DNA from: Deltaproteobacteria bacterium
Lineage (GTDB): Bacteria > Desulfobacterota > Deferrisomatia > Deferrisomatales > BM512
Reading direction: 5' to 3'
Assembly (NCBI GenBank): GCA_002869015.1
Contig: PKTT01000032.1
Location: 1-64,000, forward strand
Length of the DNA stretch: 64,000 nucleotides
Shown here piece after piece: positions 60,239 through 64,000 of this stretch. Numbering within the stretch: the first letter of the stretch is position 1; every line of letters begins with the position of its first letter. Position numbers and translations under genes: made by a program. Below the pieces are notes generated by a model, which was not told where the DNA came from, ran no database searches, and saw only the letters and a program-made list of their open reading frames with translations.

Positions 60239-61033
60239 CTAATTAATTGACCGCTCCAGCTTGGCTACCAACTCAATGAGGTCGCCGAGGGTGCGTTTTA
60301 TGTGATTTAGCTCGCCTCGGAGGTCAACAGTTGAAGTCTTTTCTTGAGTGGGCTGCTGGGGCGCTGGCTGTGAGCTAGCCTGGGATGGCGATGCAAATCC
60401 TTTTGCTTCCCGTTTTTTGAGGGCCGCCGCTCTCAACCTGTTAGCATCCTGCTTCATCTCGTTGTAAAGCCCCATCATCTCATTTACGAGCGCATCTTTA
60501 CTTGGCAAGTTGGGAGCAGGGGGTTGCAGGAATACATCCAGTGAATCGAGGGTTGTCTTTAGAAATTTCAAAGCAAGCGGTGACGCAAGAGATTTTGATG
60601 CCCGAAGATATTTACAGCAAACCGATGCCATTTTAACGGCATTTTGCGCGTGCATGTTGTCCTGGGTCATCGCGCCGAGGCGTTTATATTCATCATCAAG
60701 GGCGTTGATATTATTAAGGTTTATCTCCCAGTCGAGAGATAGCAGCGCCTCGTGGAGCGGGCGAAGCATATCCATCGATGGGGTACCCTCTGAGTCACCG
60801 GCTTCCACCTCCTCCGAGAAATCGACAGCCTCCTCTTCATCGTCGTTTCCCCAGGTTATATTCATATCGATCGCCTCATCGGCTTCCTCTTGAGCCGCTT
60901 CAGCTTCAACCTTTAACGCCTTCTCTGAATTTGCCTTTGTCGCGCCCCCCGAGGGAACGAAGAGGTCGTCAATGGCCTGATCGATCATGCTCTCAATGTT
61001 GTCGATACCGGTCTTATCGTCGCCAGAATTCAT
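60239..61033 (-). CDS. Unknown acidic helical protein downstream of mglA
   Basis: A 264-residue cytosolic protein I cannot assign. The N-terminal 85 residues are acidic and probably disordered (DDEEEAVDFSEEVEAGDSEG). The middle (about 85-190) is helical (LRPLHEALLSLDWEINLNNINALDDEYKRLG; KYLRASKSLASPLALKFLKTTLDSLDVFL). A Gln/Pro/Ser linker and a C-terminal heptad-like segment (LRGELNHIKRTLGDLIELVAKLERSIN) follow. It starts 10 nt after the MglA-like gene, so a role as effector or adaptor of that GTPase is inferred. Confidence 0.7.
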   Translation of the reverse strand: MNSGDDKTGIDNIESMIDQAIDDLFVPSGGATKANSEKALKVEAEAAQEEADEAIDMNITWGNDDEEEAVDFSEEVEAGDSEGTPSMDMLRPLHEALLSLDWEINLNNINALDDEYKRLGAMTQDNMHAQNAVKMASVCCKYLRASKSLASPLALKFLKTTLDSLDVFLQPPAPNLPSKDALVNEMMGLYNEMKQDANRLRAAALKKREAKGFASPSQASSQPAPQQPTQEKTSTVDLRGELNHIKRTLGDLIELVAKLERSIN

Positions 61034-61042
61034 GGCTACCCC

Positions 61043-61672
61043 TTAAGTCATTCCCGAGGTCAGCGAAGGCATCAGCTTTCGCGCCACGGACTTTACTGTA
61101 GTCTTGCTTATTTCGCGCAGGGTCTCAAAGACTCCTTCACCCGTAAGGGCGCTGGCATTAAAGCAAGGAACATTGTAAACAGAGTTTAAATCGCTGACCA
61201 TGTCAGCCTCTGAGAGCAGTGGAATGCCCTCAGCAGCTAGATCCTGTTTGTTAAACTGTAAAACCAATGGAATTTTATTTATATCAACGCCAATGTCAGC
61301 GAGGTTGTCGCGAAGATTTTCAAGCGACTCGATATTTTTCTCTTTCTGAGATACCTGGGAGTCCGCTATGAAGGCAACCCCATCCACGCCCTTAAGCACC
61401 AGCTTTCTCGTCGCATTGTATATGACCTGACCCGGAACGGTGAAAAGCTGAATCCTGATATCAAAACCGAATATCTTGCCTATGGAGAGGGGGAGAAAGT
61501 CGAAGAAGAGTGTCCTGTCCTGCTTGGTGTCGATGGAGACCATCTGCCCGCGAACGGCGTCGGTCATGGCTTCGTGTATGTGTAGAAGGTTCGTTGTTTT
61601 GCCGCCACGGCCTGGGCCGTAATAGACAATCTTAACGTGTACCTCCCGCTTAGAAAGATCGAGAAATGACAC
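61043..61672 (-). CDS. MglA-type small Ras-like GTPase
   Basis: A 209-residue bacterial GTPase of the MglA family, which sets cell polarity and controls type IV pili and gliding in Myxococcus. The P-loop is the atypical MglA form GPGRGGKTTNLLHIHEAM. The PM3 region is FTVPGQVIYNATRKLVLKGVDGVAFIADS (Gly-Gln, no Asp, as in MglA), and the base-recognition motif is FNKQDL. Two nucleotides after the MglB-like gene. The window's pilMNOPQ genes give it a plausible client. Confidence 0.92.
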   Translation of the reverse strand: MSFLDLSKREVHVKIVYYGPGRGGKTTNLLHIHEAMTDAVRGQMVSIDTKQDRTLFFDFLPLSIGKIFGFDIRIQLFTVPGQVIYNATRKLVLKGVDGVAFIADSQVSQKEKNIESLENLRDNLADIGVDINKIPLVLQFNKQDLAAEGIPLLSEADMVSDLNSVYNVPCFNASALTGEGVFETLREISKTTVKSVARKLMPSLTSGMT

Positions 61673-61674
61673 GA

Positions 61675-62070
61675 TTAGTTGTCCTCTTGCAGGATTGGGA
61701 GAAGATGGCTCTTTACCTTGGCTGTTTTGAGGCGCATAAGGCCAAGGGAAACATCCTTGTTAAACAAGGTAATGAGGAAGAAGTCATCTCCTATCTTTGT
61801 ATAGTGGATATTCTCAGTGGCTCCCTTGTGAAAAAGCAAAGAGAAGTTATCCTCACCGACCAGACGAGCGATCTCTTCAGTTACACCATAATTTGCCGCA
61901 GAGAGCGCCGCAAGCGCTACTACGTCGATGTCCGACGGGTATCCCCTGTTTGCAATCAGATAGCCAGACCGGTCAACTAGAAGCGCGCATGTAGCCCCTG
62001 ACGAGAGGAGGTCTTCATCAATAACTCCATCAATAACTTGGAGCGTCTTCTCGGAGAGAACAAATTCCAT
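61675..62070 (-). CDS. MglB-like Roadblock/LC7 protein
   Basis: A 131-residue Roadblock/LC7-domain protein, the fold of MglB, the GTPase-activating partner of MglA. The core is ALLVDRSGYLIANRGYPSDIDVVALAALSAANYGVTEEIARLVG followed by FSLLFHKGATENIHYTKIGDDFFLITLF. It lacks the longer tail of Myxococcus MglB. First gene of the minus-strand trio. Confidence 0.9.
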   Translation of the reverse strand: MEFVLSEKTLQVIDGVIDEDLLSSGATCALLVDRSGYLIANRGYPSDIDVVALAALSAANYGVTEEIARLVGEDNFSLLFHKGATENIHYTKIGDDFFLITLFNKDVSLGLMRLKTAKVKSHLLPILQEDN

Positions 62071-62568
62071 CTTAAGGACTCCGTAAATATCCGCTAAATT
62101 TCAGGCTGTGCCCGATAAGCAGAGAAGCACTGCCAGCAATTTTTTTGCTGAAAGGTAGTGACGGGCAACTCCAACTTAAAATCTTGAACCATTGACTTTA
62201 CGCTGTCAATCCATAACTCCCTATTCGGCAGAAATCACAGGAAGTTTAGGGCCTTTAAGATTCAATATATTTTCTTGGGAATTGCTAGAGGTTTTTTTAC
62301 CTGAAGATGTTTATTTCATATTTTACTCGACAGAAAAGCTATGAGCGGTAGCTACGGCAGGCTAAATACTTCTCTGCCGACTTGTGGTAGTACTACTACT
62401 TTATCTTGCTTTCCAAATACCTTTATGTGCTATTTAAAATATGGAGATTCTTGCTGCGGCGGGTTGAGGAGAGAAGACAGCTTTACCTTGTATCTCTAAA
62501 ATAATTTGCTGAGCTAAGCTCACCACCTGAATGCCGTATAATTAACTTAACACTGGAGGAGTATATCC
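62071..62568. other. 498-nt divergent intergenic region
   Basis: Between mglB (minus) and the reductive-dehalogenase-like gene (plus). It contains a short stem CAGCAA/TTGCTG near 62134-62150 and the candidate promoter at 62511-62542. No gene, tRNA fold or recognised riboswitch is visible. Confidence 0.45.
62511..62542 (+). promoter_or_regulatory. Candidate promoter with inverted repeat for the RdhA-like gene
   Basis: A perfect -10 box TATAAT (62537-62542) lies 27 nt before the gene start. No -35 match is seen at 16-18 nt. Instead the -35 region carries the inverted repeat GAGCTAAGCTC (62511-62521), as expected for an activator-dependent promoter. It does not match the dehalobox consensus known from CprK/RdhK systems. 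Confidence 0.4.
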
Positions 62569-63960
62569 TTGCTTATATTTGTGTCGGGCATGATAGCCAT
62601 ATTTCTCCTGCTCACAGGGATCTTTGCTTACGAGTCATACAGAGAGGAGCAGCCAAGGGCCTTTAAAATAGGCATCGCAATGATTTTAGTTGCCCTCACA
62701 TTGGCTGCCAGTGCACTTCTCATTCCCGCAACTTTACCCCTCATGACAATTTTATTTGCGCTCATCCTTTTAGTGGCTGCCCTGCTCATCTTTCCATCAA
62801 AGAGGAGTGAGCAGGCGCTAAAGGGTGCTGGCGGGTATGTTATTGAAGAGCATAAGCAAGTTGATGAACGGGATATCATCTTCGCTAGGCTGCGGAGTCT
62901 TCAGCCCGGCACAGAGCGCTATGACAACTATTATATGGCCAACCCGGAATTTAAATTTGCCGATGATAGGCGGCGGGATACCGGTGGGCTTATCGGCAGC
63001 CTTGGCGCGATAGATGGACGTTACCAACCAAATACCTCAATGCCGCTGGCGATGGGCAGCATACCCCAGCTTCTTGGCCCCTACGCTTCATTTGGGCCAA
63101 TTCCAGGGCGTACAAAGGCCGAGCTGAACCCGGCGGAGGCAAGCAAAATAATAAAGGGGCTGGCGGAGCACCTCGGAGCTGTCGCAGTAGGTATTTGCCG
63201 GGTTGATAAGAGGTGGACCTATTCGCATCGCGGAGATATCCATTTTGAAAATTGGGAGGACTGGGGGAAGGCGATAGGCGACCCGCTACCCTACGCCGTA
63301 GTTTTCATAACGGAGATGGACCATGATCTGCTTTGCGCAAGTCCTCACACTCCGACGATAGTTGAGTCGATGACCAATTACGCCAAGGGAGCATTTATAA
63401 GTACGGTGCTCGCCAAATGGTTTGCAGGAATGGGTTATCATGGAGACGCCGAGCATTGGCGCCACTACAACCACAATATGGTGCCGCTGGCAATAGATGC
63501 GGGGCTCGGTGAACTGGGGCGTTTCGGCTATCTGATAAGTGATAAGGTCGGGGGGCGGTGCCGGATCGCCGCTTGTCTAACGGATATGCCGCTTGAGGTC
63601 GACTCGCCCGTTGATTTGGGTGTCGAGGTTTTCTGTGAAAGATGCATGAAGTGCGCCGATTCATGCCCATCAAAATCAATCACCAAGGGCAAAAAGACTA
63701 TAGATAATGGCCGCCTGCTATGGAAGCTCGACCCGGAGAGCTGTTACGACTACTGGTGTAAGGTGGGCACTGATTGCGGTATATGCATGGGCGTGTGCCC
63801 CTTCAGTAGGCCTAACCGCTCTGTTCACAAGTTGGTCCGCTGGTTTGTCAAGCGCTCCTCCCTCGCACAGAGGGTATTCCCTTTGATAGACAACATGCTC
63901 TATGGCAAAAAATGGAAAGTGCGCAAACCTAAGGAGTGGGCCGCATACCCAAAAAATTAA
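62569..63960 (+). CDS. Reductive dehalogenase-like protein with N-terminal membrane helices
   Basis: Of 463 residues. TTG start with GGAGGAG 7 nt upstream. Three membrane helices occupy about residues 1-21, 33-53 and 55-76; there is no Tat signal. The rest matches the RdhA catalytic fold: VGICRVDKRWTYS, AIDAGLGELGRFGYLISDKVGGRCRIAACLTDMPL (corrinoid-binding region), a first cluster FCERCMKCADSCPSKSI (about 356-366), and a second cluster in GTDCGICMGVCPF (about 404-411). Epoxyqueuosine reductase (QueG) shares the cofactor but lacks the membrane helices and the GLGELGR context. No rdhB anchor gene is visible in the remaining 40 nt. Dehalogenation is inferred, not shown. Confidence 0.88.
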   Translation: MLIFVSGMIAIFLLLTGIFAYESYREEQPRAFKIGIAMILVALTLAASALLIPATLPLMTILFALILLVAALLIFPSKRSEQALKGAGGYVIEEHKQVDERDIIFARLRSLQPGTERYDNYYMANPEFKFADDRRRDTGGLIGSLGAIDGRYQPNTSMPLAMGSIPQLLGPYASFGPIPGRTKAELNPAEASKIIKGLAEHLGAVAVGICRVDKRWTYSHRGDIHFENWEDWGKAIGDPLPYAVVFITEMDHDLLCASPHTPTIVESMTNYAKGAFISTVLAKWFAGMGYHGDAEHWRHYNHNMVPLAIDAGLGELGRFGYLISDKVGGRCRIAACLTDMPLEVDSPVDLGVEVFCERCMKCADSCPSKSITKGKKTIDNGRLLWKLDPESCYDYWCKVGTDCGICMGVCPFSRPNRSVHKLVRWFVKRSSLAQRVFPLIDNMLYGKKWKVRKPKEWAAYPKN

Positions 63961-64000
63961 TTTAAGGGGATAAAGCCAGGAACCAAAACAATCAAGTTCA

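Follow-up and report, generated by a model that had tools for sequence, protein, structure and literature searches.

The window analysed here, a stretch of 64,000 nucleotides from a member of the Deferrisomatales, encodes a reductive dehalogenase homologue (RdhA) whose three N-terminal membrane helices are fused to a complete RdhA domain in a single chain. Computation places the protein in a strongly supported clade of relatives with the same architecture, finds the characteristic residues conserved and the positive charges concentrated on one side of the membrane, and detects neither a Tat signal nor an rdhB gene. It is nearly certain that the protein belongs to the hybrid RDases that have already been reported and is not a new kind. 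The explanation that we favour, by a small margin more probable than not, is a menaquinol:organohalide oxidoreductase of the PceAB type in inverted orientation, in which an RdhB hairpin and an RdhA are fused into one chain that faces the cytoplasm.

Gene and genomic context

The hybrid gene starts with a TTG codon (Table 1). It is under purifying selection: the comparison with the orthologue in G001, a genome of the same genus, gives a pN of 0.19 and a pS of 0.72 over 193 common codons (omega about 0.1, with dS near saturation). A pseudogene or a wrong start is ruled out by this selection, by the absence of stops and by the good Shine-Dalgarno sequence. A binning error is ruled out by the upstream gene order, which is identical in G001; the contig of the latter breaks off inside the hybrid gene. 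The gene is not a product of chance, because its clade has 16 members and 100/100 support and because pN is so much lower than pS.

Table 1. Features of the hybrid RdhA gene and its upstream neighbour; positions are those of the window
Feature	Position	Strand	Basis and remarks
Roadblock/LC7 protein, divergent upstream neighbour	61675-62070	-	PF03259; same order in G001
Shine-Dalgarno-like GGAGGAG	62555-62561	+	7 nt before TTG; read directly
Hybrid RdhA gene	62569-63960	+	463 aa, stop included in the positions; open frame, TIGR02486, clade 100/100
Membrane helix 1, residues 2-25, RdhB-like	62572-62643	+	AlphaFold/DSSP, hydropathy
Acidic turn E26-E27-Q28, at the position of the RdhB/hybrid ExE motif	62644-62652	+	Alignments; RdhB turns; identical in G001
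Membrane helix 2, residues 29-51, RdhB-like	62653-62721	+	AlphaFold/DSSP; high-ranking matches of the hybrid N-terminal profile include RdhB ORFs
Membrane helix 3, residues 53-74, linker back to the acidic-turn side	62725-62790	+	AlphaFold/DSSP
RdhA domain, residues 85-463	62821-63957	+	Profile, alignment, fold
Y271, aligned with catalytic Y426 of NpRdhA	63379-63381	+	Invariant in hybrids; alignment
R332, aligned with catalytic R396 of DhPceA	63562-63564	+	Invariant in hybrids; alignment
First [4Fe-4S] motif, C356-x2-C359-x2-C362-x3-C366	63634-63666	+	Profile, alignment
Second [4Fe-4S] motif, C392 ... C403-x2-C406-x3-C410	63742-63798	+	Profile, alignment
C-terminal helices with R414, H420, R424, D441 and Y445, at DhPceA menaquinone-pocket positions	63808-63903	+	Alignment, AlphaFold

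Upstream and divergent is also an ORF that reads by eye as an MglA-type GTPase (no Pfam match). The Roadblock/LC7 gene, this probable GTPase and a third small ORF stand in a row at 60239-62070 on the minus strand, and their order is kept in the genome of the same genus. Downstream, on the opposite strand, genes for an HU/IHF-type protein, pheT, pheS, rplT, infC and thrS (rplT and thrS identified by eye) extend to the end of the contig at 70139. A 14-pair stem-loop lies at contig positions 64013-64044, but such sites are not in excess across the region, and scans for promoters and terminators returned no more sites than in shuffled sequences. The surroundings that were read contain no rdhB, regulator, transporter or redox partner. 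The first-pass annotation had pointed to the region beyond position 64,000 as a place to look for rdhB, ferredoxin or quinone-linked genes: it holds none, only housekeeping-type genes on the other strand.

In the host genome, the hybrid is the sole match above the RDH cut-off. The genome also encodes two MqnA/MqnD-type proteins and has a cobalamin riboswitch. Weaker QueG-like iron–sulfur proteins are found on contigs C55, C40 and C39.

Catalytic domain and family placement

The protein scores 190.1 bits against TIGR02486, the NCBIfam profile of reductive dehalogenases (cut-off 160.35), and 33.3 bits against the QueG profile TIGR00276 (cut-off 200). Both iron–sulfur motifs of the family, FeS1 (CXXCXXCXXXCP) and FeS2 (CXXCXXXCP), are present, with prolines after C366 and C410. 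The catalytic Tyr and Arg/Lys of RdhA proteins are represented by Y271 and R332; the DhPceA counterpart of the latter, R396, is named as a catalytic residue in the structure paper (PMC10624902). The Pfam family PF13486 did not match the hybrid, and the genome search with PF13486 was blank everywhere, controls included, so that its result carries no weight.

The AlphaFold model has a mean pLDDT of 82.8 and a pTM of 0.84 (the five models spanned 57 to 83). Its fold matches those of PceA2B2, PceA and NpRdhA with E values of 1e-17 to 1e-19, against only 1e-4 to 1e-6 for QueG. The model, built without ligand, matches corrinoid-bound structures; a predicted structure lacking the corrinoid pocket, which would have spoken against the first-pass annotation, did not arise.

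Relatives were searched and 395 genomes of the phylum were scanned. The hybrids found share 41-54% identity with the window's protein. A maximum-likelihood tree was built from 44 proteins, 16 of them hybrids, with the RdhA of Sulfurospirillum and Dehalococcoides, the Tat-type RdhA of Fulvivirga, the catabolic RdhA of Comamonas, Nitratireductor and Ruegeria, other homologues from the phylum and QueG-like proteins; the published Bacteroidota hybrids are outside this comparison. A branch supported at 100/100 separates the window's protein and the 15 other hybrids from the rest of the tree, and the window's protein pairs with a hybrid of the same order (G006; 100/99). The QueG-like proteins have very long branches and their own placement is unsure, yet they fall outside the hybrids. 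A single-sequence scan of named genomes matched only the Tat-type Fulvivirga RdhA. One genome, G348, encodes three hybrids (L073, L074, L075), which represent both hybrid subgroups; two of them have TRAP or TAXI-type importers nearby.

The group was reported by Jochum et al. in 2018 (PMC6129605). Atashgahi et al. described it in 2019 as "hybrid RDases with N-terminus transmembrane helixes", with three helices, no Tat signal and no rdhB (PMC6797604). The membership of the window's protein follows from this shared architecture and from its position in a clade of genomes that have it. The published proteins (PMC6129605, PMC6797604) resemble it in the acidic turn that joins helices 1 and 2, in the completeness of the RdhA domain and in a chain length of about 450-490 aa; the window's protein differs from them in having Gln in place of the second Glu of the ExE turn, and in being encoded by a stand-alone gene between housekeeping genes. 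The classical respiratory RdhAB systems, unlike the hybrid, have a Tat signal on RdhA and a separate rdhB gene. The catabolic cytoplasmic enzymes NpRdhA and BhbA share with the hybrid the RdhA core, the absence of a Tat signal and a probable cytoplasmic site, but they are soluble, carry a fused reductase domain, have no membrane helices and belong to a separate clade. QueG is a distant homologue in its fold and [4Fe-4S] clusters, has no membrane helices and lies outside the hybrids in the tree. Profile, tree and fold thus rule out QueG or another non-dehalogenase family, and uphold the assignment in the first-pass annotation to RdhA homologues with N-terminal helices.

An RdhB-like membrane anchor

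The first-pass annotation had read three N-terminal hydrophobic helices in front of a complete RdhA domain, and no Tat signal. Hydropathy, AlphaFold, TIGR02486 and the two FeS motifs confirm the former, the helices being modelled with confidence (block pLDDT about 87-95), and no twin-Arg is found near the N-terminus.

The RdhB ORFs that adjoin true rdhA genes encode a two-helix hairpin with the turn motif SxxExEPxA (e.g., GSYGEDEPQA, GSYVEIEPKA and SSVLEGEPQA). Hybrids have ESIREDEPRA and similar sequences between helices 1 and 2. In the genus of the window's organism, ExE is replaced by ExQ: the first Glu is kept and the second is Gln, both here and in G001. The 2019 survey does not treat the motif as absolute (PMC6797604). 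A profile of the hybrid N-terminus was compared with 4551 ORFs. Six RdhB-type ORFs appear among the first 24 non-hybrid matches, and two of the six adjoin rdhA genes and were newly singled out by the profile; the scores of the RdhBs are individually weak. Helices 1 and 2 and their turn are likely homologous to the RdhB hairpin, judging from these sequences, the profile test alone being no proof. The N-terminal 84 aa of the hybrid, searched alone, have no solved structural relative.

The hybrid anchor and RdhB were previously compared in the 2023 structure paper on PceA2B2 of Desulfitobacterium hafniense (PMC10624902). The hybrid has the RdhA fold, the catalytic Tyr/Arg, the quinone-pocket positions and the acidic-turn hairpin in common with this complex, but it is one chain instead of two, has an extra linking helix and lacks the Tat signal. 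The RdhB of Sulfurospirillum, with 74 aa, appears to be little more than the anchor hairpin. If such a hairpin were fused before an RdhA, one more helix would be needed to return the chain, which would account for helix 3.

Two loci close to the hybrids in the tree, L020 and L022, have another membrane arrangement. In each, an RdhA that has an extra helix and a hydrophobic N-terminus, apparently not of the Tat type, is directly followed by an RdhB-like ORF (at 2391 and 2398, respectively, both on the plus strand) whose turn is GEKEP.

Electron donor

Counted from the last FeS2 cysteine, R414, H420, R424 and Y445 of the hybrid fall exactly at the menaquinone-pocket residues K489, H495, R499 and Y520 of DhPceA, and D441 falls within one residue of D515 of this pocket. 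H420, D441 and Y445 are conserved in at least 90% of the aligned hybrids. The H, D and Y are also found in helix-less RdhA homologues, so they support quinol use but do not prove it. On balance, menaquinol is a somewhat probable donor.

The strongest competing proposal is that of a cytoplasm-facing dehalogenase whose electrons come from ferredoxin or another soluble donor, the helices being a mere tether. The occurrence of the pocket residues in helix-less proteins agrees with it, as does the loss of one turn Glu in this genus, the second Glu having been proposed as a proton carrier in PceB (PMC10624902); soluble catabolic RdhAs likewise rely on reductase domains or partners. However, the hybrids have retained an RdhB-like hairpin and not an arbitrary anchor, and this hairpin lines the menaquinone site in PceA2B2 (PMC10624902). 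Moreover, the hybrid has no reductase domain, and no ferredoxin gene is next to it. We therefore regard a soluble donor as unlikely, although it is the best placed of the alternatives.

Neighbouring genes in relatives and substrate

In G023, G092, G123 and G348, the TRAP genes dctP, dctQ and dctM adjoin the hybrid gene on the same strand. A GntR/FCD regulator is also present at the loci of G023, G092 and G123, and in G092 dctP begins 4 nt after the hybrid gene. A further hybrid of G348 has a TAXI-type binding protein and DctM nearby. Of 12 loci, 5 have DctP no more than 5 kb away from the hybrid, compared to an expectation of about 2.4% per locus (90 DctP in about 37 Mb), but three of these five loci are from close relatives and the count is not one of independent events. 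In G293 (L076:3769-8126, minus strand), the hybrid is followed directly, on the same strand, by GlcD- and GlcF-like genes, whose products are a possible partner in hydroxy-acid oxidation.

TRAP systems are mostly importers of organic acids. Their presence next to the relatives fits an enzyme that acts in the cytoplasm on an imported acid, a proposal which extends to the window's gene by kinship, since this gene has no TRAP neighbour. That the substrate is a halogenated organic acid is somewhat less likely than not.

A membrane-anchored reductase of the same fold could instead reduce a compound that carries no halogen, of the epoxide, ether or thioether type. QueG shows that other substrates are within reach of the fold. 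No QueG (TIGR00276) above cut-off was found in the host genome, and no hybrid has an established substrate. On the other hand, all hybrids keep the dehalogenase Tyr/Arg pair, tree and fold set them apart from QueG, the latter is a soluble enzyme whose substrate is tRNA, and the host assembly is just 95% complete. A non-halogenated substrate thus seems rather unlikely.

Orientation in the membrane

Lys and Arg residues number 97 on the side of the turn and of the catalytic domain and 18 on the other, with the same sign in all 16 hybrids that have an N-terminus (counted by simple hydropathy segmentation, in proteins that are mutually related). By the positive-inside rule, this bias would place the catalytic domain in the cytoplasm. 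The turn region contains one to four positive residues in the hybrids, compared to 0, 0, 1 and 0 in four RdhBs; in two further RdhB-like ORFs the number is about two (L022) and about one (L081). The hybrid turn also holds acids, and its net charge is near zero. PceA2B2 acts at the outer face of the membrane, and its acidic turn lies on the side where PceA is (PMC10624902); for the hybrid, the charges indicate the reverse orientation. In the 2019 survey, TMHMM predicted an exoplasmic domain for about half of the hybrids (PMC6797604).

The three-helix Rieske proteins of actinobacteria are inserted by Sec and Tat together, through a twin-Arg between helices 2 and 3 (PMC5449189). The host genome encodes TatC. 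Such dual export is nevertheless ruled out for the hybrids, as an Arg pair ahead of helix 3 is absent from all 16. An exoplasmic respiratory enzyme, with its RdhA domain exported by an unusual route and working on the outer face like PceAB, would agree with the arrangement of PceA2B2 and with half of the TMHMM predictions, but it is improbable in view of the missing Tat signal and Arg pair and of the charges in 16 of 16 hybrids, and export by Sec alone is not known for a domain that is folded around FeS clusters and a corrinoid. The catalytic domain is most probably on the cytoplasmic side, as far as the sequences tell, and the cytoplasmic option raised in the first-pass annotation is the better supported one.

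Proposed function and implications

A cytoplasmic orientation, a quinol donor and a halogenated substrate, all three inferred, make up the most likely reading of the protein. It would sit in the cytoplasmic membrane as a hairpin of RdhB type, made of helices 1 and 2 and the acidic turn, followed by the linking helix 3 and a complete RdhA, its corrinoid/2x[4Fe-4S] domain facing the cytoplasm. Menaquinol would be oxidised where the acidic turn meets the C-terminal helices that carry the H, R, D and Y residues, and electrons would pass through the two [4Fe-4S] clusters to the corrinoid. Y271 and R332 would then serve in the reductive removal of halogen from a substrate inside the cytoplasm, probably an organic acid. 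The role would be catabolism or the re-oxidation of quinol, not classical exoplasmic respiration. Counting against this explanation are the lack of any reported activity for a hybrid, the mixed TMHMM predictions, the Gln in the turn, and a gene in the window without TRAP, regulator or redox neighbour.

Atashgahi et al. asked on which side of the membrane the hybrids work, how an outside domain would be secreted without Tat, and what the substrate is (PMC6797604). One testable answer, inside and on imported acids, is suggested by the charge pattern, by the TRAP neighbours and by the lack of an Arg pair in front of helix 3. Compared to the 2019 survey, the reading of the anchor as RdhB-like, the charge bias, the residue conservation and the TRAP neighbours are new here. 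We tentatively propose, for the hybrids as a whole, that fusion of the RdhB hairpin to RdhA and a reversal of the charges around the turn have produced an inside-out PceAB, a quinol-fed cytoplasmic dehalogenase of imported halogenated organic acids. Should this hold, quinol-linked dehalogenation would not be confined to the exoplasmic side, and the hybrids would add a third wiring of reductive dehalogenation to those of exoplasmic respiration and soluble catabolism. Intracellular dehalogenation would then take place in many uncultured anaerobes.
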